Positions 9,554 through 16,282 of a stretch of DNA of 64,000 bases are shown piece by piece; positions within the stretch are counted from its first letter, which is position 1; each line of letters starts with the position of its first letter. The notes below the pieces were generated by a model, which was given only the letters and a program-made list of their open reading frames with translations, was not told the DNA's origin and searched no databases. The position numbers were made by a program, and so were the translations under genes. The DNA is taken from assembly GCF_030540835.1 (NCBI RefSeq), contig NZ_JAUOEK010000184.1, positions 310,001 to 374,000 on the forward strand, in the 5' to 3' direction. Origin of the DNA: Flavivirga aquimarina. GTDB taxonomy: Bacteria > Bacteroidota > Bacteroidia > Flavobacteriales > Flavobacteriaceae.

Positions 9554-11095
9554 TTACATCTTCATTAACCAAGAACGCACATCAACTTCTTGTTTAATGA
9601 TCTCTCTTAAATCTTCAATTTTAACACGTTGTTGTTCCATGGTATCTCTATGACGAATGGTAACCATGTTGTCTTCTAAAGTATCGTGATCTACGGTGAT
9701 ACAGAATGGTGTTCCATTGGCATCCTGCCTTCTATAACGTCTTCCAACGGCATCTTTTTCATCATAAATTACATTGAAATCCCATTTTAAATCCTCTACA
9801 ATCTTACGAGCAACATCTGGTAAACCGTCTTTTTTAACCAATGGTAAAATAGCTGCTTTTACTGGTGCTAATACACTTGGCAATTTTAAAACTGTACGTG
9901 TTGTTCCATTTTCTAAGGCTTCTTCTTGCAATGAATTAGAAAACACAGCTAAAAACATACGGTCTAAACCTATAGATGTTTCTAAAACATATGGTGTATA
10001 ACTTGCGTTATCTTCGTGATCAAAATATTGTAATTTCTTTCCTGAATATTCTTCATGAGCCTTTAAATCGAAGTCGGTACGTGAATGAATACCTTCTAAT
10101 TCTTTAAAACCGAATGGGAATTTAAATTCAATATCGGCAGCAGCATCTGCATAATGTGCTAATTTCTCATGGTCGTGAAAACGGTAGTTCTCTTCTCCCA
10201 TGCCTAATGACAAGTGCCATTTTAATCGGGTTTCCTTCCAGTGCTCATACCATTTTTGTTGTGTACCTGGTTTTATAAAGAACTGCATTTCCATTTGTTC
10301 AAACTCACGCATTCTAAAAATAAACTGTCTTGCTACAATCTCATTTCTAAAAGCTTTTCCTGTTTGTGCAATTCCAAACGGAATCTTCATACGTCCTGTT
10401 TTTTGAACATTCAGAAAGTTTACAAAAATCCCTTGTGCTGTTTCTGGACGCAAATATAAATCCATCGCAGAGTCTGCAGAGGCACCTAGTTTGGTACCAA
10501 ACATCAGGTTAAACTGTTTAACATCTGTCCAGTTTTTACTTCCAGTTAGCGGATCTGCAATTTCAAGTTCTTCGATAAGGGCTTTTACATCGGCCAAATC
10601 TTCATTTTCCAAAGATTTTGCCATTCGAGAAAGCGTCGTGTTTATTTTTTCCTGATAGCCTAAAACACGTCCGTTTGTAGACAAAAATTCTTCTTTGTTA
10701 AAAGCATCTCCAAAACGTTTGGCCGCCTTGGCTACTTCTTTATCAATTTTAGTTTCAATTTTAGCACAATAGTCCTCGATTAAAACATCGGCACGGTATC
10801 TTTTTTTAGAATCTTTATTATCAATTAACGGATCATTGAATGCATCCACATGGCCAGACGCTTTCCATGTGGTTGGGTGCATAAAAATAGCAGCATCTAT
10901 GCCTACAATATTTTCATGCATTTGCACCATCGCTTTCCACCAGTAATCACGTATGTTTTTCTTTAACTCAGCGCCATTTTGCGCGTAGTCGTAAACTGCA
11001 CTTAATCCATCATAAATTTCACTGCTTTGAAATACATATCCATACTCCTTCGCATGCGAAATAACCTTCTTAAATTGATCGTCTTGATTTGCCAT
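9554..11095 (-). CDS. glyS: glycine--tRNA ligase, alpha2 type
   Basis: Charges tRNA-Gly. At 513 residues it is the homodimeric class II enzyme. Motif 2 is seen as RNEIVARQFIFRMREFEQMEMQFF, preceded by LRPETAQGIFVNF (glycine enzyme signature); motif 3 is YTPYVLETSIGLDRMFLAVF. The C-terminal anticodon-binding domain (APVKAAILPLVKKDGLPDVA) is present. Some bacteria use the unrelated alpha2-beta2 form; this genome has the short type. A perfect -7 box (11101-11108) ends only five bases before the ATG, so the mRNA may be leaderless. Confidence 0.96.
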   Translation of the reverse strand: MANQDDQFKKVISHAKEYGYVFQSSEIYDGLSAVYDYAQNGAELKKNIRDYWWKAMVQMHENIVGIDAAIFMHPTTWKASGHVDAFNDPLIDNKDSKKRYRADVLIEDYCAKIETKIDKEVAKAAKRFGDAFNKEEFLSTNGRVLGYQEKINTTLSRMAKSLENEDLADVKALIEELEIADPLTGSKNWTDVKQFNLMFGTKLGASADSAMDLYLRPETAQGIFVNFLNVQKTGRMKIPFGIAQTGKAFRNEIVARQFIFRMREFEQMEMQFFIKPGTQQKWYEHWKETRLKWHLSLGMGEENYRFHDHEKLAHYADAAADIEFKFPFGFKELEGIHSRTDFDLKAHEEYSGKKLQYFDHEDNASYTPYVLETSIGLDRMFLAVFSNSLQEEALENGTTRTVLKLPSVLAPVKAAILPLVKKDGLPDVARKIVEDLKWDFNVIYDEKDAVGRRYRRQDANGTPFCITVDHDTLEDNMVTIRHRDTMEQQRVKIEDLREIIKQEVDVRSWLMKM

Positions 11096-11100
11096 AGGTG

Positions 11101-11108
11101 CAAAAATA
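11101..11108 (-). promoter_or_regulatory. glyS -7 box five bases before the start codon
   Basis: On the minus strand TATTTTTG then CACCT then ATG. The exact TAnnTTTG match this close to ATG implies a leaderless transcript. No TTTG was found 19 bases upstream, so the call is tentative. Confidence 0.45.
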
Positions 11109-11247
11109 AAAAAGTGCTTGAAACTGAGGAGGGTGTTTACTAAAAAAATAATATTTAAACGCTTTTTTAGCTATTGATAGTGATATCAATTTAAAATTAG
11201 ATATCAATAAGTTTGTGGTCTAGTAGAGATCTTAAATTAATTTTTAT

Positions 11248-13068
11248 TTAATTCAGAAATTTAGATTCGTCATAAAAACAATTAATTGTTCCTAATTTAT
11301 ATTTGATAATAGGGCAATCTTCACGATAGGTAATTTTTTTATAAGGGCATGGTTCAACTTTTAATTCCGAAACTGTATAATATTCCAATCTATCTTCAAT
11401 ATAATCAACATTTAAATTATTATCTAACTTGGAGTCAGAATTTAATATAGAATTATTCAAAGAATTTTTACTACCTGTATAAAATAAAGAAATAACAATA
11501 ATTGATTTTACATTATTAAAAAAATCTTTTTCTCTAAAATTGATTAGTTCCCGTATAGTTCTTCCATCATGAACTACATCTGTAATAATTAATACAGAAT
11601 TATAGTTATCAGTTTTTGGTAGATTTAATTTTTTTTCATAGTAATTATGTTCATTATACCTATAGGAATATGGTAAAAATGTATAAGGTTTTTTATATTT
11701 GACTGAAGCGCGGGTAGAAATAATATTTCCTTCAAGTCCTAAACCAATAATAACATCTATTCTATTATTTAACTTTTTTTTGTCAATAATGTCGGTTATA
11801 GATTCCTTGCAAAGCAATAGATCTTCTTTATCTCCTAGTAGTTTTGAAATATCAATCCAATTATGGGCTCTAGATGTTTCACTCCAATGAAAATGACCTG
11901 AATGATAAAGATTTTTATTCTGTACAATTTTTATAAGTGACTTACTATAAAAGGATTCTGTTTTATTAACGAAACTAGTGTTTATTTCTTCTACTGAGGA
12001 TTCAATATCTTCTGTACTTGTAACGCCTTTTGGAACTAATTCTTGATCAATAATGTCTTCTGTTTGAATTTTAAATATGGGAAATATCTCTTCTTCTCTT
12101 TCGTAGATTTTAGGATTAACAGGAGCCCAAACTCCTCCTTTAGTTTGATTGATACTATTATTGTCTAAATTTTCAAAGATGGTATTTTTAAAGTATAATT
12201 GTTCTTTTTTTTCTACGATTTCATAAGCTTTAAATGTTCCTTTAGGCTTTTTAGAAGTTAATGATCCAGCTTCTGAATAATATGTATTTAGACTATTACC
12301 TGAACACCTAGTATGTTCATTTCCAAAAAGTAATAGCTTAAAATTATATTCTGCAAAAAGGTTTATTAAGTCTATTCTATTTTCTTTATTATCCCATTGA
12401 CCAATTTCTTTATCTTCATATTCAGAAAATAGATTATGATGAAATGCTGCTATCTTTGAATAATCTTTATATTTATTATTAAGAGTCTTAATTTCTTTTT
12501 CTAATGGAACTATAGGAATAAAACCTTTGCCTCCCTTGGCTCCAATTCTTGAATTTGAATTAATTGCTATAATTACTAATTTTTGTTTGTCAAATGCCAG
12601 AATATCGGTAATTAATTTTTTAGGATTAAAAGCCCTCCCAAAAAAAGAATTATAAAATTTTTTATAAAATTTATACTTTTCATTCAATTCAAATGATTTT
12701 TTCTTATTCTCTCTCTCTCTTTTAGCTGCTAGATTAGCATGTATTCTATTTATATCATGGTCTCCAACAACATAGATGGCATTTTCAATTGGAATTTTTA
12801 ATGAATCCATCAATCCTTTTAAAAAATTTTCTGCTATAGTATATTCCAATTCATCTGATTCGTTTACTAAATCCCCAGTAATAATCAAATAAAATTCATG
12901 GTTTGGATATTCATTATTAATTGCTGAATTAATTTTTTTGATATAAGAGGAAATGAAATCATCATTGGAATTAGTTGAAATCCAAAACTGTAAATCACTT
13001 TTCTCACCATCAATATTTTCGTAAAGAAAAATATGCAAATCAGATATATGGATTATTACTTTATTCAT
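11248..13068 (-). CDS. metallophosphoesterase fused to an orotate-PRTase-like domain
   Basis: Two-domain protein of 606 residues. Residues 1-260 follow calcineurin-like phosphoesterase motifs in order: SDLH (D10, H12), TGDL (D66), GDHD (102-105, where GNHD is usual), FHH (209-211) and GNEHT (249-253, where GHxH is usual). Residues about 385-530 resemble an orotate phosphoribosyltransferase: GHFHWSETSRAHNWID (391-406), IGLGLEGN (441-448) and the PRPP loop IITDVVHDGRTI (494-505), in which the first acid is Thr. A linker (300-385) and a C-terminal tail of about 75 residues with a CPYK...CP cysteine pair are unassigned. The start overlaps the end of the upstream PRTase gene by 8 bases. Third gene of an AT-rich operon; function unknown. 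Confidence 0.75.
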   Translation of the reverse strand: MNKVIIHISDLHIFLYENIDGEKSDLQFWISTNSNDDFISSYIKKINSAINNEYPNHEFYLIITGDLVNESDELEYTIAENFLKGLMDSLKIPIENAIYVVGDHDINRIHANLAAKRERENKKKSFELNEKYKFYKKFYNSFFGRAFNPKKLITDILAFDKQKLVIIAINSNSRIGAKGGKGFIPIVPLEKEIKTLNNKYKDYSKIAAFHHNLFSEYEDKEIGQWDNKENRIDLINLFAEYNFKLLLFGNEHTRCSGNSLNTYYSEAGSLTSKKPKGTFKAYEIVEKKEQLYFKNTIFENLDNNSINQTKGGVWAPVNPKIYEREEEIFPIFKIQTEDIIDQELVPKGVTSTEDIESSVEEINTSFVNKTESFYSKSLIKIVQNKNLYHSGHFHWSETSRAHNWIDISKLLGDKEDLLLCKESITDIIDKKKLNNRIDVIIGLGLEGNIISTRASVKYKKPYTFLPYSYRYNEHNYYEKKLNLPKTDNYNSVLIITDVVHDGRTIRELINFREKDFFNNVKSIIVISLFYTGSKNSLNNSILNSDSKLDNNLNVDYIEDRLEYYTVSELKVEPCPYKKITYREDCPIIKYKLGTINCFYDESKFLN

Positions 13069-14086
13069 TGTTTTTTTCGTTTAAAAATTTGTCATCTAAA
13101 CTCGTAATAATTTGATAGTTTATTGGATTATCTTCTTTTGTTATTTCAAACACTGATTCAACGTCATCATAAACTTTAGAGGTAGGATGTGCAGTCTGTA
13201 TTCTAACTACAGAAATATTTCCTATATAATTGCCTCCTAAATAGTTAATGAGGTTTTTGGTAATTTTTATCTCGGTACCTAAACAAACAACATCAGAAAC
13301 TACTAGATAATTTTGTCCTTCTTCAATTTTATTATCTAGATTGCTATATAGCTCATTTATTGGTCCAATCTTGTCTAAAATCAAAATATCAAATCCCAAA
13401 TAGCTTGACATTATCGATGTAATATATGCACTATTTAAATTTTGGCATACCAATATGGGTCTGTTAGGACTATTTATTAAATTCTTCCAATGTTTTTTTG
13501 TTTTAAGAGCTAAATGATATAAAGCAAGAAGAAAAAACTCTTTTTTGTTAGTAATCATTGACTTGACATCAATATATTTATTTAGATAAATAGAAGAGGA
13601 ATGATGAAAAATTAAACTATTTTCTTTCGTTGAATTCTTAGAGTTCAGTTTTAAATACTCAATAAATTCATTCTTGAAAATATCTGAAATTATCTCATAT
13701 TCAATTTTGTTTTCTTCTGAGACAAAGAAAGATGTATAGATTCTATCAATTCTAGTATTATTTGTGTTATTGAATATCGAGAGATTCAATTTTTTAATGG
13801 TACTTACATTAACATTCAATAAAGTCAATGATTTTGAATTATTTTTGATTTCTTTAATTAACTCGTATAAATTATTTTGACAAATTAAAATATTGTCAAA
13901 ATCTAAGATGGTATCAAAATCTTTATTTAAATCCCCTTCGCTTAATATCCTTTCTAATGTATCTTTGAACAATGTCTCTTCAAATACTCCTGTTCCAGGC
14001 TCATTGATTAGGGCCCAAGAAACAGATTGTTCAGCATGAATAGTAAAGTAAATTTGATTGTTAAATAAAATTCTAGATATCAACAT
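13061..14086 (-). CDS. PRTase-like protein, second gene of the ATPase-PRTase-phosphoesterase operon
   Basis: The protein has 341 residues. The C-terminal half looks like a type I phosphoribosyltransferase of the orotate-PRTase kind: HHSSSIYLNKYIDVKSM (161-177), RPILVCQNLNSAYITSIM (209-226) and LVVSDVVCLGTEIK (261-274) as the PRPP-loop equivalent, with Ser replacing the first acid and Leu-Gly in place of Thr-Gly. The N-terminal 110 residues (FDTILDFDNILICQ, SLTLLNVN) could be a STAS-like alpha/beta domain, a weak inference. It lies 4 bases after the ATPase gene and overlaps the next gene by 8 bases, so translation of all three is probably coupled. Probably catalytically altered or a nucleotide sensor; no known name. 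Confidence 0.65.
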   Translation of the reverse strand: MLISRILFNNQIYFTIHAEQSVSWALINEPGTGVFEETLFKDTLERILSEGDLNKDFDTILDFDNILICQNNLYELIKEIKNNSKSLTLLNVNVSTIKKLNLSIFNNTNNTRIDRIYTSFFVSEENKIEYEIISDIFKNEFIEYLKLNSKNSTKENSLIFHHSSSIYLNKYIDVKSMITNKKEFFLLALYHLALKTKKHWKNLINSPNRPILVCQNLNSAYITSIMSSYLGFDILILDKIGPINELYSNLDNKIEEGQNYLVVSDVVCLGTEIKITKNLINYLGGNYIGNISVVRIQTAHPTSKVYDDVESVFEITKEDNPINYQIITSLDDKFLNEKNNE

Positions 14087-14090
14087 AAAA

Positions 14091-15332
14091 TTAACTGTTT
14101 GGGATTTCTAGTTCAATATGCACTCCTTTAAAAGTGACTTTATAGAATCTTACAGAAGAAAACTTAATATCATGCGAATATTGATAAAGTAATTTTTCTC
14201 CAAACTTTATAAATTCTAACTTACACTTATCTCTTAATTTAACTAAATCTAATTTATTTGATTTATCATCTTCTAAATCATAAAGGTCTTCACTATATTT
14301 ATTAATTATTTCCGCACGAAGTATATATAATTTTTCTAATTGGTTTATAAATCTATGAGAAATTATTACTTGAGAATTCATATTATGTATTCTGACAACA
14401 CCATTAGATTCAATAATTACATTTAAAATCAAATCAAAAAGTCCATATCTTTCTTTTAACAATGAAAAATATAATGCCTCAAAAATAGCTAATAATGATT
14501 CTTTTAGTTTATCTGAGATATTGAAATTAAAATTGAAGCTGTCTTTTAATGCATTTATTATTTCAAACTTATTATATAAAAAAGAATTTTCTTTTTCAGC
14601 TAAAGAGTTATAAAAACCAATTCCGCAATCAGCAATAGAAAATTTAGTAGAATAAATATTTGAGAACATTAGTGCATATAGATTTGATTTAGAATGTAAA
14701 ACCCCATTAGTAATTAATTCAGCAAGAATCTCAATATATAAAATTGACTTGTTTCCTATATTTTTGGTTGTCTCAAGAAGTTCATGAAAATGATCCTTGG
14801 CTTGATATGCAAAATGTTGGACTAGGTAATCACGTTTTTCTTCATCGGTAAGTATAAGTTCTAACTTTTCTGAAAGATTATGAGTCAAAGAATACTTTCT
14901 GATTTTATGTTCTGGGCGGATGGGTTTTTTTTTATAACCCCCAAAATACCTTTTATCAAATATAAAAATACCTTCTCCATTTGGATTCAGATATGATTTC
15001 TCATTAATTAAATTTATGAAATCAGAACGTTCAAGAAATGCAAGAACGTCTAAGTTACTCGGTGAATTAATAAAATTAAATTTTACTAATGAATTATAAT
15101 ATTTTTTTAATTGCTCACCGAGGCATGCAATCAAAGGTAATGTCAAGGAGTCTATATAATTTCTTTGTAATATTAAATCATTTCCTGCATCATGAGAAAT
15201 TATCAGCTCAATTTTTGTATTAGCACCTCTATTTTCCTTTAAAAATATGGCTATTCTTAATAAAAAATTGTTATAAAAATAATAGGAACTGAACTTTCTA
15301 TTATCTTTTAATAATGGGGTGATATTATTCAT
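14091..15332 (-). CDS. GHKL-type ATPase with probable N-terminal STAS-like domain, first gene of the operon
   Basis: The ATG at 15330-15332 gives 413 residues; an in-frame TTG six codons upstream (15350) is less likely. The ATP-binding fold is complete: N-box IEILAELITNGVLHSKS (200-216, with E205 and N209), G1 box IADCGIGF (233-240), YGLFDLILNVIIESNGVVRIHN (296-317) for the G2 region, and a closing FKGVHIELEIP. No phosphoacceptor-His dimerisation motif or membrane segment is visible, so it is not an ordinary sensor kinase and is closer to anti-sigma or MutL/Hsp90-like cytosolic ATPases. Residues about 40-110 (IDSLTLPLIACLGEQLKKYY, LDVLAFLERSDFI) resemble the STAS-like module fused to such ATPases. 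Insertions at 250-290 and 320-395 are AT-rich and unassigned. Confidence 0.65.
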   Translation of the reverse strand: MNNITPLLKDNRKFSSYYFYNNFLLRIAIFLKENRGANTKIELIISHDAGNDLILQRNYIDSLTLPLIACLGEQLKKYYNSLVKFNFINSPSNLDVLAFLERSDFINLINEKSYLNPNGEGIFIFDKRYFGGYKKKPIRPEHKIRKYSLTHNLSEKLELILTDEEKRDYLVQHFAYQAKDHFHELLETTKNIGNKSILYIEILAELITNGVLHSKSNLYALMFSNIYSTKFSIADCGIGFYNSLAEKENSFLYNKFEIINALKDSFNFNFNISDKLKESLLAIFEALYFSLLKERYGLFDLILNVIIESNGVVRIHNMNSQVIISHRFINQLEKLYILRAEIINKYSEDLYDLEDDKSNKLDLVKLRDKCKLEFIKFGEKLLYQYSHDIKFSSVRFYKVTFKGVHIELEIPNS

Positions 15333-15350
15333 AATTGAATCATAAAGCAA

Positions 15351-15604
15351 GTTTAGATACTAAAATTTCGATTCAAATCGATTAATACTTAAACTTTATA
15401 AACTCCCCTAATATAAATGTAATTATTTTATTACAGAAATTATTATGATTTAAATCTATATTAAATTGGGATATATTATTAGTTAACGCTATTCAAGTAA
15501 CCAGTATATTTAAGATTACTGGCGCGGTAAGATATCCGTCCAGACCAAAGATTTTTAGTTGTTATTTTTTTTATTAAGTTTACAGAACATGTTCTTTTTA
15601 ATAA
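15351..15604. other. intergenic region between the ATPase operon and comF
   Basis: Divergent gap of 254 bases. Next to the operon, TCGATT/AATCGA arms (15368-15373 and 15376-15381) form an inverted repeat. CCAGTA/TACTGG arms (15501-15506, 15517-15522) make a second. Around 15520-15545 the sequence becomes GC-richer than the island, a possible join. A perfect 12-base palindrome, agaacatgttct (15584-15595), precedes comF. No exact TAnnTTTG box was found for the operon. Confidence 0.4.
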
Positions 15605-16282
15605 ATGTTCAAACCACTAATAAACTTATTCTTCCCAAAAGTATGCCACGTATGCCAAAACATATTGAGCGATAACGAAGAAACTATCTGCACCGATTGC
15701 CGACATAATCTACCCGTTACTAACTTCCATTTTAATAACGACGACACAGTTCCTAAAGTGCTTTACGGGCGTGCCAAAGTTAAAAATGGTACGGCTCTTT
15801 TTCGGTTTGAAAAAAAGGGAATTGTTCAACAACTTATTCACGGATTAAAATATAAAGGTTATGAAAACATTGGTATTTTTCTCGGAAATTGGTTAGGAGG
15901 CGAACTAAAAAATATAGATTCCTATAAAACCATTGATGTGGTGATTCCCGTACCGCTGCATAAAAAGAAACTAAAAAAGAGAGGGTATAATCAAGTAGCG
16001 AAATTTGGTCAGCAAATTGCAAAAGCTTTAAAAGTAGCTTATAAAGACAATACTCTTTTAAAAGTAACTTCTTCTAAATCGCAAGTTGATAAAAAACGAT
16101 TGGCTCGTTGGAATAACAGCAATGAATTATTTACGCTTGTTAATTCTGAATCTATAGAAAACAAACACATTTTGTTAGTAGACGATATTATTACGACTGG
16201 CGCTACTTTAGAGGCTTGTATAACAACATTGAATCGGGCAAAAAATATAAAAATAAGTATCGCTACCATGGCAATAGCTTAA
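15605..16282 (+). CDS. comF: ComF family phosphoribosyltransferase-like protein
   Basis: ComF-like protein of 225 residues, linked to DNA uptake and recombination in competent bacteria, probably coupling to PriA and other DNA factors. The N-terminal zinc ribbon is visible (CHVCQ at 14-18 and CTDC at 29-32). The PRTase part has VIPVPLHKKKLKKRGYNQV and the PRPP loop ILLVDDIITTGATLEAC, with both acids intact, unlike the PRTase domains of the neighbouring operon. Transcribed away from that operon. The start at 15605 gives the usual hydrophobic MFKPLINLFFPKVCHVC. Confidence 0.9.
   Translation: MFKPLINLFFPKVCHVCQNILSDNEETICTDCRHNLPVTNFHFNNDDTVPKVLYGRAKVKNGTALFRFEKKGIVQQLIHGLKYKGYENIGIFLGNWLGGELKNIDSYKTIDVVIPVPLHKKKLKKRGYNQVAKFGQQIAKALKVAYKDNTLLKVTSSKSQVDKKRLARWNNSNELFTLVNSESIENKHILLVDDIITTGATLEACITTLNRAKNIKISIATMAIA

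Follow-up and report, generated by a model that had tools for sequence, protein, structure and literature searches.

Of the immune systems described so far, VapKSC is nearest in layout to the locus analysed here. This three-gene anti-phage operon codes for the GHKL kinase VapK, which single-stranded DNA activates, the STAS antitoxin VapS and the PIN toxin VapC, and a similar kinase, CapK, works together with the STAS-wHTH repressor CapS to control immune operons (PMC13373217). The metallophosphatases of DS-8 and DS-9 are needed for phage defence, as has been validated experimentally; DS-9 comprises a metallophosphatase and a HAD phosphatase, while DS-8 is a metallophosphatase-NACHT protein (PMC13092281). 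In ShosTA and type III retrons, in turn, PRTase effectors serve phage defence (PMC9122126, PMC12548924). A cassette within a 64,000-nucleotide stretch of the Flavivirga aquimarina genome ("the window") unites three themes that so far have been seen apart, namely immune partner switching by GHKL and STAS proteins (VapKSC, CapKS), metallophosphatases as effectors (DS-8, DS-9) and defence PRTases (ShosTA, type III retrons).

The cassette comprises three open reading frames on the minus strand, gene 1 (14091..15332, 413 aa), gene 2 (13061..14086, 341 aa) and gene 3 (11248..13068, 606 aa), with 4 bases between genes 1 and 2 and an 8-base overlap of genes 2 and 3. The interval has a GC content of 25-26%, compared to about 30-37% across most of the window, and is flanked by glyS (9554-11095, minus strand) and comF (15605-16282, plus strand). 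The original prediction of three tightly spaced genes, which form an AT-rich island between glyS and comF and belong to no named system, is thus borne out: the three-gene set corresponds to no model of PADLOC, Pfam or NCBIfam, PADLOC yielded no match at E values up to 10, and no description was found in the literature searched. We consider it about an even bet (a probability of roughly 50%) that the cassette is a horizontally mobile defence module, where a kinase acts on a switch and the switch on an effector, as in VapKSC. Both are three-gene operons that open with an anti-sigma-type GHKL protein, continue with a STAS or possibly STAS-like protein and end in a catalytic effector, and VapKSC is likewise often found near other defence genes. 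In contrast to VapKSC, the third gene of the cassette encodes a metallophosphoesterase-OPRT fusion rather than a PIN nuclease, and gene 2 harbours a whole PRTase fold.

Gene 1 is predicted to consist of an N-terminal alpha/beta domain, possibly STAS-like, and, from about residue 139 to 413, a C-terminal SpoIIAB/RsbW-type GHKL domain. Taken on its own, the window protein has no Pfam match, yet HATPase_c is matched in 13 of the 16 family members, and the E-x-x-x-N and D-x-G-x-G motifs (N-box E205/N209 and G1 box D235/G237/G239 in the window) are invariant. In structural comparisons with VIA-align, the AF2 model (pLDDT 88.7) resembles SpoIIAB (Z 9.3, rmsd 3.1, 126 residues aligned), RsbW (Z 8.1) and UsfX (Z 7.5), and the seven top matches all belong to the SpoIIAB/RsbW/UsfX group. 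The proposed GHKL assignment therefore holds, but judging from the model, the label of SpoIIAB/RsbW-type kinase-fold protein suits gene 1 better than that of the generic ATPase originally envisaged. Folds of this type are classical stress switches, and the modelled fold points to partner switching. The likeness to SpoIIAB/SpoIIAA and RsbW/RsbV comprises the fold of the ATP-binding domain and a possible STAS-like partner; yet no sigma factor is linked to the cassette, the partner adopts a PRTase fold, and gene 1 has sizeable additional helices plus an N-terminal domain of its own. By fold and invariant motifs, the GHKL kinase domain also appears CapK-like, and like CapK and CapS, gene 1 combines a SpoIIAB-like GHKL domain having an N-terminal domain with a possibly STAS-like partner; unlike in that pair, no HTH was recognised in gene 1, and gene 2 has a PRTase fold in place of the winged helix. 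The kinship to VapK is one of fold and layout only. A classical two-component kinase was dropped as a description of gene 1, since there is no DHp region.

Gene 2 encodes a putative N-terminal STAS-like domain (about residues 1-128) followed by a type I PRTase fold (about residues 133-331). The N-terminal part is weakly STAS-like, as its secondary structure elements follow the STAS order and matches to PF01740 are weak (E 0.015 in locus L015, from Aquimarina latercula); when genes 1 and 2 were compared by profile (hhalign) with three STAS proteins from this genome, neither gave a match. At the start of STAS helix 2 the alignment reads QNN, QSN, QAN, QPN, SNN, GKN or HNV, and DDH in locus L029; the Ser/Thr that kinases of the VapK/CapK type phosphorylate, absolutely conserved in VapS, is accordingly not conserved here, which counts against the VapKSC-like reading. 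The assignment of gene 2 as PRTase-like is borne out by structure, since its AF2 model (pLDDT 78.5) matches APRT (Z 16, rmsd 2.9, 157 residues aligned) and OPRT (Z 15.6). The PRPP loop is a variant, SDVVCLGTE (D265, G270, E272), in which the motif's first acid has been substituted, as it has in gene 3; the PRTase domains of the two proteins do not align by profile comparison. Because the PRTase fold replaces the winged helix of CapS, gene 2 is unlikely to be a DNA-binding repressor, and this role was dropped, as there is no HTH.

Gene 3 combines a metallophosphoesterase domain (residues 1 to about 290) with an OPRT-like domain (about residues 385-560). The fusion of a phosphoesterase to an orotate-PRTase-like domain, noted initially, is recovered in matches to NF053862 (DS9_1; E 3.7e-19), to the pyrE model TIGR00336 (E 2.9e-6) and to 2xmo (E 2.3e-15). 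Homologues of gene 3 score best with NF053862 and NF053861, making the DS-8/DS-9 metallophosphatases the closest relatives of the domain and DS-9A the nearest in NCBIfam. However, this domain forms the N-terminal part of a fusion whose OPRT-like C-terminal half has no NACHT P-loop, and its 68.9 bits lie far below the family cut-off of 420; it thus appears to be related to DS-9 rather than a member of the same family. The window operon has no neighbouring gene for a HAD phosphatase, the partner in DS-9, nor do the additional downstream genes scanned at L009 (CinA-like) and L022 (ThyX) supply one, and Pfam and NCBIfam reveal no PIN domain in gene 3. Metal-site residues are conserved (D10, H12, D66, H104, H210, H252), but two positions are altered in the window's clade (GNHD to GDHD and GHxH to GNEH). 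These changes weigh against the proposed mechanism and leave gene 3 of that clade as a candidate enzyme. Its PRPP loop, ITDVVHDGRT, retains one acid where it aligns with VVEDLISTGKS of the genome's own PyrE, and in Bacteroidales (IIKDITFDAE) G-x-T is lost as well; the PyrE hallmark of two acids plus T-x-G-x-S/T is missing from gene 3. One solo gene 3 (L028) adjoins a phage repressor in a Mu-like phage. Gene 3 can therefore stand apart from genes 1 and 2, a hint that the action resides in this protein.

These features bear on a rather unlikely alternative, in which the cassette still serves defence, but with gene 2's PRTase as an enzyme or toxin that makes or depletes a nucleotide, with gene 3 destroying the signal or performing the second half of the chemistry, and with gene 1 as a simple sensor ATPase. 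The PRPP-type loop of gene 2 and the full PRTase fold are kept, and ShosTA and type III retrons use PRTases, which are presumed toxins there (PMC9122126, PMC12548924). Moreover, in some clades the cassette is followed by an extra gene for a nucleotide enzyme: five Flavobacterium loci have a CinA/PncC-like one (scanned at L009, from Flavobacterium hydrophilum) and three Bacteroidales loci have ThyX (scanned at L022), versions that hint at pools of NMN or thymidylate. Against an enzymatic gene 2 argue the replaced first acid in both PRTase domains, the further loss of loop residues in gene 3 of Bacteroidales, the SpoIIAB-type fold with its hint at partner switching, and the phage-borne solo gene 3. 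Unlike ShosTA and type III retrons, the conserved operon includes neither DprA nor a reverse transcriptase, and it matches no PADLOC model.

The genes occur in the order 1-2-3 at 16 loci beyond the window, down to about 26% identity, and once more at a very divergent locus in another class (about 20% identity). Since the same order recurs so often, a chance arrangement is excluded. All homologous loci with enough flanking sequence are complete, which answers the co-occurrence check suggested at the outset, and the genes share their history (Mantel r 0.89-0.95 for the Flavobacteriia loci, with at most 1 in 5000 permutations as high); hence, they are one heritable unit. This unit is accessory, horizontally spread and patchy across Bacteroidota. 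In two genera it is 93.8% identical over 4105 bp, which cover the cassette and nothing beyond: DNA similarity extends from 34 bases before gene 1 to the gene 3 stop codon, and the flanks are dissimilar. Cassettes of one genus can be closer to those of other families than to those of congeners, and the Chryseobacterium candidae cassette shares 67% identity with that of Flaviramulus, as opposed to at most 48% with other Chryseobacterium. In the window's genus, the gap between glyS and comF is an insertion hotspot, measuring 108-236 bp in three species and housing unrelated genes, some of them metabolic, in others. With scattered loci and empty sites in congeners, the homologues are not confined to metabolic genes in fixed positions, an outcome that would have spoken against the original prediction. 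The cassette is rare (5/296 in the order, two of the five being unrelated Hpt-type matches; 3/395 in the phylum; 1/395 in the class), and stop codons in gene 1 of L018 and gene 3 of L019 indicate decay. The order-search matches in genomes G167 (L004, an Hpt-Adk-like fusion) and G102 (the matching hit L005) are not relatives. Searches of plasmids, phages and viral contigs revealed no further cassette, the solo gene 3 of L028 being the sole viral match; a phosphoesterase encoded on a Novosphingobium plasmid aligns with gene 3 over 118 residues, with no PRTase or kinase neighbour annotated.

Defence genes, including type I and II restriction, type I-B CRISPR and PADLOC candidates, adjoin about 8 of 18 loci: PDC-M01 (L006), DUF262/QatA-like (L009), TIR and DS-8-like (L012), type I REase (L017), PDC-S73 and PDC-M29 (L022), PDC-S49 (L023), type II MTase (L024), and Cas8b/Cas6 together with ThiF-DUF6791/DUF6527 (L029). 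At the same cut-off, none of 45 window proteins scored (0/45). DpdF matches near L018 are probably ordinary DEAD-box helicases and were left out of the count. Location in defence islands, a check suggested at the outset, applies to some loci and not to others, since about half, the window's included, lack a recognisable defence neighbour. Of the stress or defence role put forward initially, defence gains from these neighbours, the patchy horizontal spread and a phosphoesterase closest to DS-8/DS-9; it is well supported by context, and as a function we infer it.

It is unlikely that the cassette is instead an accessory stress or metabolic module, spread horizontally, in which partner switching controls a cyclic-nucleotide phosphodiesterase or another phosphodiesterase with no anti-phage role. 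The classical role of SpoIIAB/RsbW folds as stress switches, the loci devoid of defence neighbours and the metabolic genes in the hotspot would fit such a module, but the contrast between about 8 of 18 loci with defence neighbours and 0/45 window proteins, the carriage of gene 3 by a phage, and a highly scattered occurrence, with two decayed copies, argue against it. Ordinary nucleotide-metabolism genes, i.e., a pyrE-like enzyme plus helpers adjacent by accident, are highly improbable despite weak pyrE and apt model matches, since the genome's own pyrE lies elsewhere, the cassette is missing from congeners at the same site, the residues for PRPP catalysis have changed, gene 3 carries a fused phosphoesterase of the defence type, and empty sites and fixed co-inheritance contradict this idea.

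PRTase folds are dimerising domains in ordinary PRTases. Computation establishes the unit, its spread, its folds and the conservation of active-site residues. We infer that the cassette is an undescribed immune module, and a defence mechanism with the following direction of control, contact and substrate can be proposed. Gene 1 would sense an infection cue and use ATP to alter gene 2, either phosphorylating it or binding it in an ATP-driven manner. Gene 2 would hold gene 3 through contact between the two PRTase folds, and once freed, the gene 3 metallophosphoesterase would cleave a nucleotide or other phosphodiester and halt phage growth at the cell's expense. PRPP or a nucleotide is the probable ligand of both PRTase folds, which would tie activation to the nucleotide pool; the nucleotide sensing or modification proposed originally is plausible. 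The original notion of an ATPase switch and a fusion effector remains the best reading, with the kinase fold in place of the generic ATPase. A more specific version, put forward tentatively, is an undescribed kind of immunity, where an anti-sigma-type kinase would free a metallophosphoesterase held by a PRTase-fold pair sensing PRPP or a nucleotide, the trigger being phage takeover of nucleotide metabolism. As a clean-bordered 4.1-kb unit in culturable flavobacteria, the cassette renders metallophosphatase substrates and the role of PRTases in immunity directly testable.

At the borders of the cassette, no target-site duplication was found, and the border repeats are short and chance-like in AT-rich DNA. 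The short spacer between gene 3 and glyS (11096..11247) represents one insertion boundary, as judged from relatives in which glyS and comF are only 108-236 bp apart. Based on the empty-site comparison, the AT-rich region between the cassette and comF (15351..15604) presumably contains the other boundary and the cassette promoter; promoter and terminator scans of the cassette yielded matches no more frequent than chance. Gene 1 also has an alternative in-frame TTG start at 15350, 18 nt upstream.

The cassette comprises three genes on the minus strand between glyS and comF, which code for a GHKL-type protein (gene 1, 14091-15332), a probably STAS-like domain joined to a PRTase fold (gene 2, 13061-14086) and a metallophosphoesterase-OPRT-like fusion (gene 3, 11248-13068). 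Genes 1 and 2 are separated by 4 bases, genes 2 and 3 overlap by 8 bases, and the GC content of the cassette is 25-26% compared to 30-37% for most of the window. The tightly coupled reading frames and the AT-rich island of the original prediction are thus borne out.

A gene 3 profile run against 84,980 species genomes retrieved 17 loci, all in Bacteroidota. The proposed co-occurrence holds: wherever enough sequence is available, the genes share a strand and the order 1-2-3, mostly with overlaps or gaps of a few bases. A divergent cassette of the same order is present in another class of Bacteroidota (genome G310, locus L029), where profile comparison supports the homology of all three proteins (probability 91-97%). 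The pairwise identities of genes 1, 2 and 3 are strongly correlated (Mantel r 0.89-0.95). Aquimarina latercula and an uncultured Flavobacteriaceae bacterium have 4105 bp in common at 93.8% identity, a stretch that opens 34 bp ahead of gene 1 and closes with the stop codon of gene 3, with no shared DNA in the other 17 kb compared, and five more locus pairs show nearly identical similarity borders. Since these borders match the cassette, the three genes are the whole inherited unit in this clade.

Ordinary metabolic genes in a fixed position, the alternative to the original prediction, do not fit the distribution of this cassette, which is rare in the genomes surveyed. Its identities conflict with taxonomy: that of Chryseobacterium candidae has 67% identity with the Flaviramulus cassette, but no more than 48% with those of other Chryseobacterium. 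Three species of the window's genus have glyS and comF separated by 108, 212 and 236 bp. In other congeners the gap is filled with as much as 9.8 kb of unrelated DNA that codes, as read from the proteins, for a glycoside hydrolase, a PLD-like protein, a SusCD operon, an ASCH-domain protein or sensor kinases (window 11096-15604; glyS-comF loci L066-L073 and L048-L050). Because gap length and gene content vary within the genus, the interval is an insertion hotspot. Two homologous cassettes carry in-frame stop codons, in gene 1 (L018:7766-8983) or gene 3 (L019:10001-11824), and are decaying. Tyrosine recombinases lie close to the cassette in L006 and L019, and one gene 3 that stands alone, its active-site motifs intact (canonical GNHD and GHEH), is found on a Mu-like phage contig (L028:8001-9773), next to the S24-type repressor at that end of the contig, which also harbours rve/MuA-like and AAA/MuB-like genes.

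Gene 1 of the window has no convincing Pfam match by itself; among 16 family members, 13 give a weak HATPase_c match (best E 0.0068). Both the N box (E205, N209) and the G1 box (D235, G237, G239) are invariant. The AF2 model (pLDDT 88.7) fits SpoIIAB (Z 9.3), RsbW (8.1) and UsfX (7.5) better than it does CheA, histidine kinases and Hsp90. SpoIIAB, RsbW and UsfX are serine-kinase-type anti-sigma factors, and therefore "kinase" appears as likely a description as "ATPase". The original view of a GHKL ATPase lacking a kinase histidine motif is upheld as to the boxes and the absent phospho-acceptor histidine domain, while its "ATPase" now shares its place with an equally likely kinase.

The AF2 model of gene 2 (pLDDT 78.5) confirms the PRTase-like assignment, with a type I PRTase fold at residues 133-331 (Z 16 to human APRT, 15.6 to OPRT). 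In the first 128 residues, strands and helices succeed each other as in STAS proteins, and a STAS domain is likely here; matches to PF01740 are weak (E 0.015, residues 39-103 of the L015 copy), and no similarity to three STAS proteins of the same genome was detected.

Gene 3 is the predicted fusion. The first half is a metallophosphoesterase, which among NCBIfam models scores best with NF053862, "anti-phage phosphoesterase DS9_1" (E 3.7e-19); its 68.9 bits fall far short of the 420 required for that family. Searching with a profile built from 17 homologues brings up Lmo2642 (2xmo; E 2.3e-15) and, weakly, acid-sphingomyelinase-like phosphodiesterase 3b. D10, H12, D66, H104, H210 and H252 are invariant in all 17 aligned members, and with the L028 and L029 copies added they remain so except at H210 or its neighbour H211. 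The main Flavobacteriia clade, which includes the window, shows a paired shift of two metal-site residues, N to D in GNHD (GDHD) and H to N in GHxH (GNEH); the Bacteroidales (L022-L024) and phage copies keep the canonical forms, and L029 combines GNHD with GDCH. The second half matches the pyrE model significantly (E 2.9e-6), and in a single-template alignment with the genome's own PyrE, by itself not significant, the hood GHFHWSETSRAHNWID pairs with PFTWASGWKSPIYCD and the PRPP loop IITDVVHDGRT, devoid of the first acidic residue, with VVVEDLISTGKS.

Within 4.5 kb of the cassettes, 109 neighbour proteins match 66 PADLOC families (E up to 1e-20), and defence neighbours occur at about 8 of 18 loci: PDC-M01 (L006), a DUF262/QatA-like protein (L009), a ThsB-like TIR with a DS-8-like part (L012, ~5 kb away), a complete type I REase (L017), PDC-S73 and PDC-M29 (L022), PDC-S49 (L023) and a type II MTase (L024). 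The expected defence islands are thus found at part of the loci, and none of the other 45 window proteins matched PADLOC at the same threshold. The context is good yet short of statistical proof, since these 45 proteins of one genome are a small control. The highly divergent L029 copy, included in the count of about 8 loci, resides in a defence island (L029:2289-13554) with type I-B cas8b and cas6, ThiF-DUF6791 and DUF6527.

In keeping with the original prediction, the three-gene set has no name in the family libraries or the literature searched. It is not a DS-9, DS-8, ShosTA or type III retron system. VapKSC consists of a GHKL kinase, a STAS protein restraining a toxin, and the toxin (PMC13373217). 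The cassette shares this layout, with a kinase-type protein, a probably STAS-like protein as proposed switch and a proposed effector; it lacks two defining features of VapKSC and is not a member, and its working would be similar at the layout level only. By analogy, gene 1 would sense, gene 2 switch and gene 3 act as effector, as is established for VapKSC. The main difference is that gene 2 has nothing equivalent to the serine of VapS; switching might involve another residue or ATP-driven binding. PRTase folds dimerise in ordinary PRTases, and those of genes 2 and 3 may form a lock between the proteins, possibly tuned by PRPP, a nucleotide or a similar ligand. The chemistry proposed for the effector is modelled on DS-8 and DS-9, in which defence depends on the metallophosphatase residues (PMC13092281). 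Taken as such, we would call the cassette a putative partner-switched, toxin-like defence system with an unusual effector and switch.

Some cassettes include a fourth gene. In five Flavobacterium loci, a short CinA/PncC-like (nicotinamide-nucleotide amidase) gene, its family called on the L009 copy, follows gene 3 after 5-40 nt (L009:11862-12419, L010:11895-12428, L014:11832-12332, L020:2294-2809, L021:1133-1633). L017, also Flavobacterium, has a cassette from another branch and no such gene. The tested carriers (L009, L010, L014, L020) possess an additional full-length CinA elsewhere in the genome, and the tested non-carriers the full-length CinA only. Each of the three Bacteroidales loci has a thyX-like (flavin-dependent thymidylate synthase) gene ~11 nt after gene 3 (L022:11685-12311, L023:11709-12344, L024:11685-12311), and two of the three genomes also have thyA. 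As both are nucleotide-metabolism enzymes, they hint at the effector substrate or at damage repair.

The protein at L012:98-2665 couples its ThsB-like TIR to the C-terminal portion of DS-8, an anti-phage protein, and seems to have exchanged the DS-8 metallophosphatase effector for a TIR.
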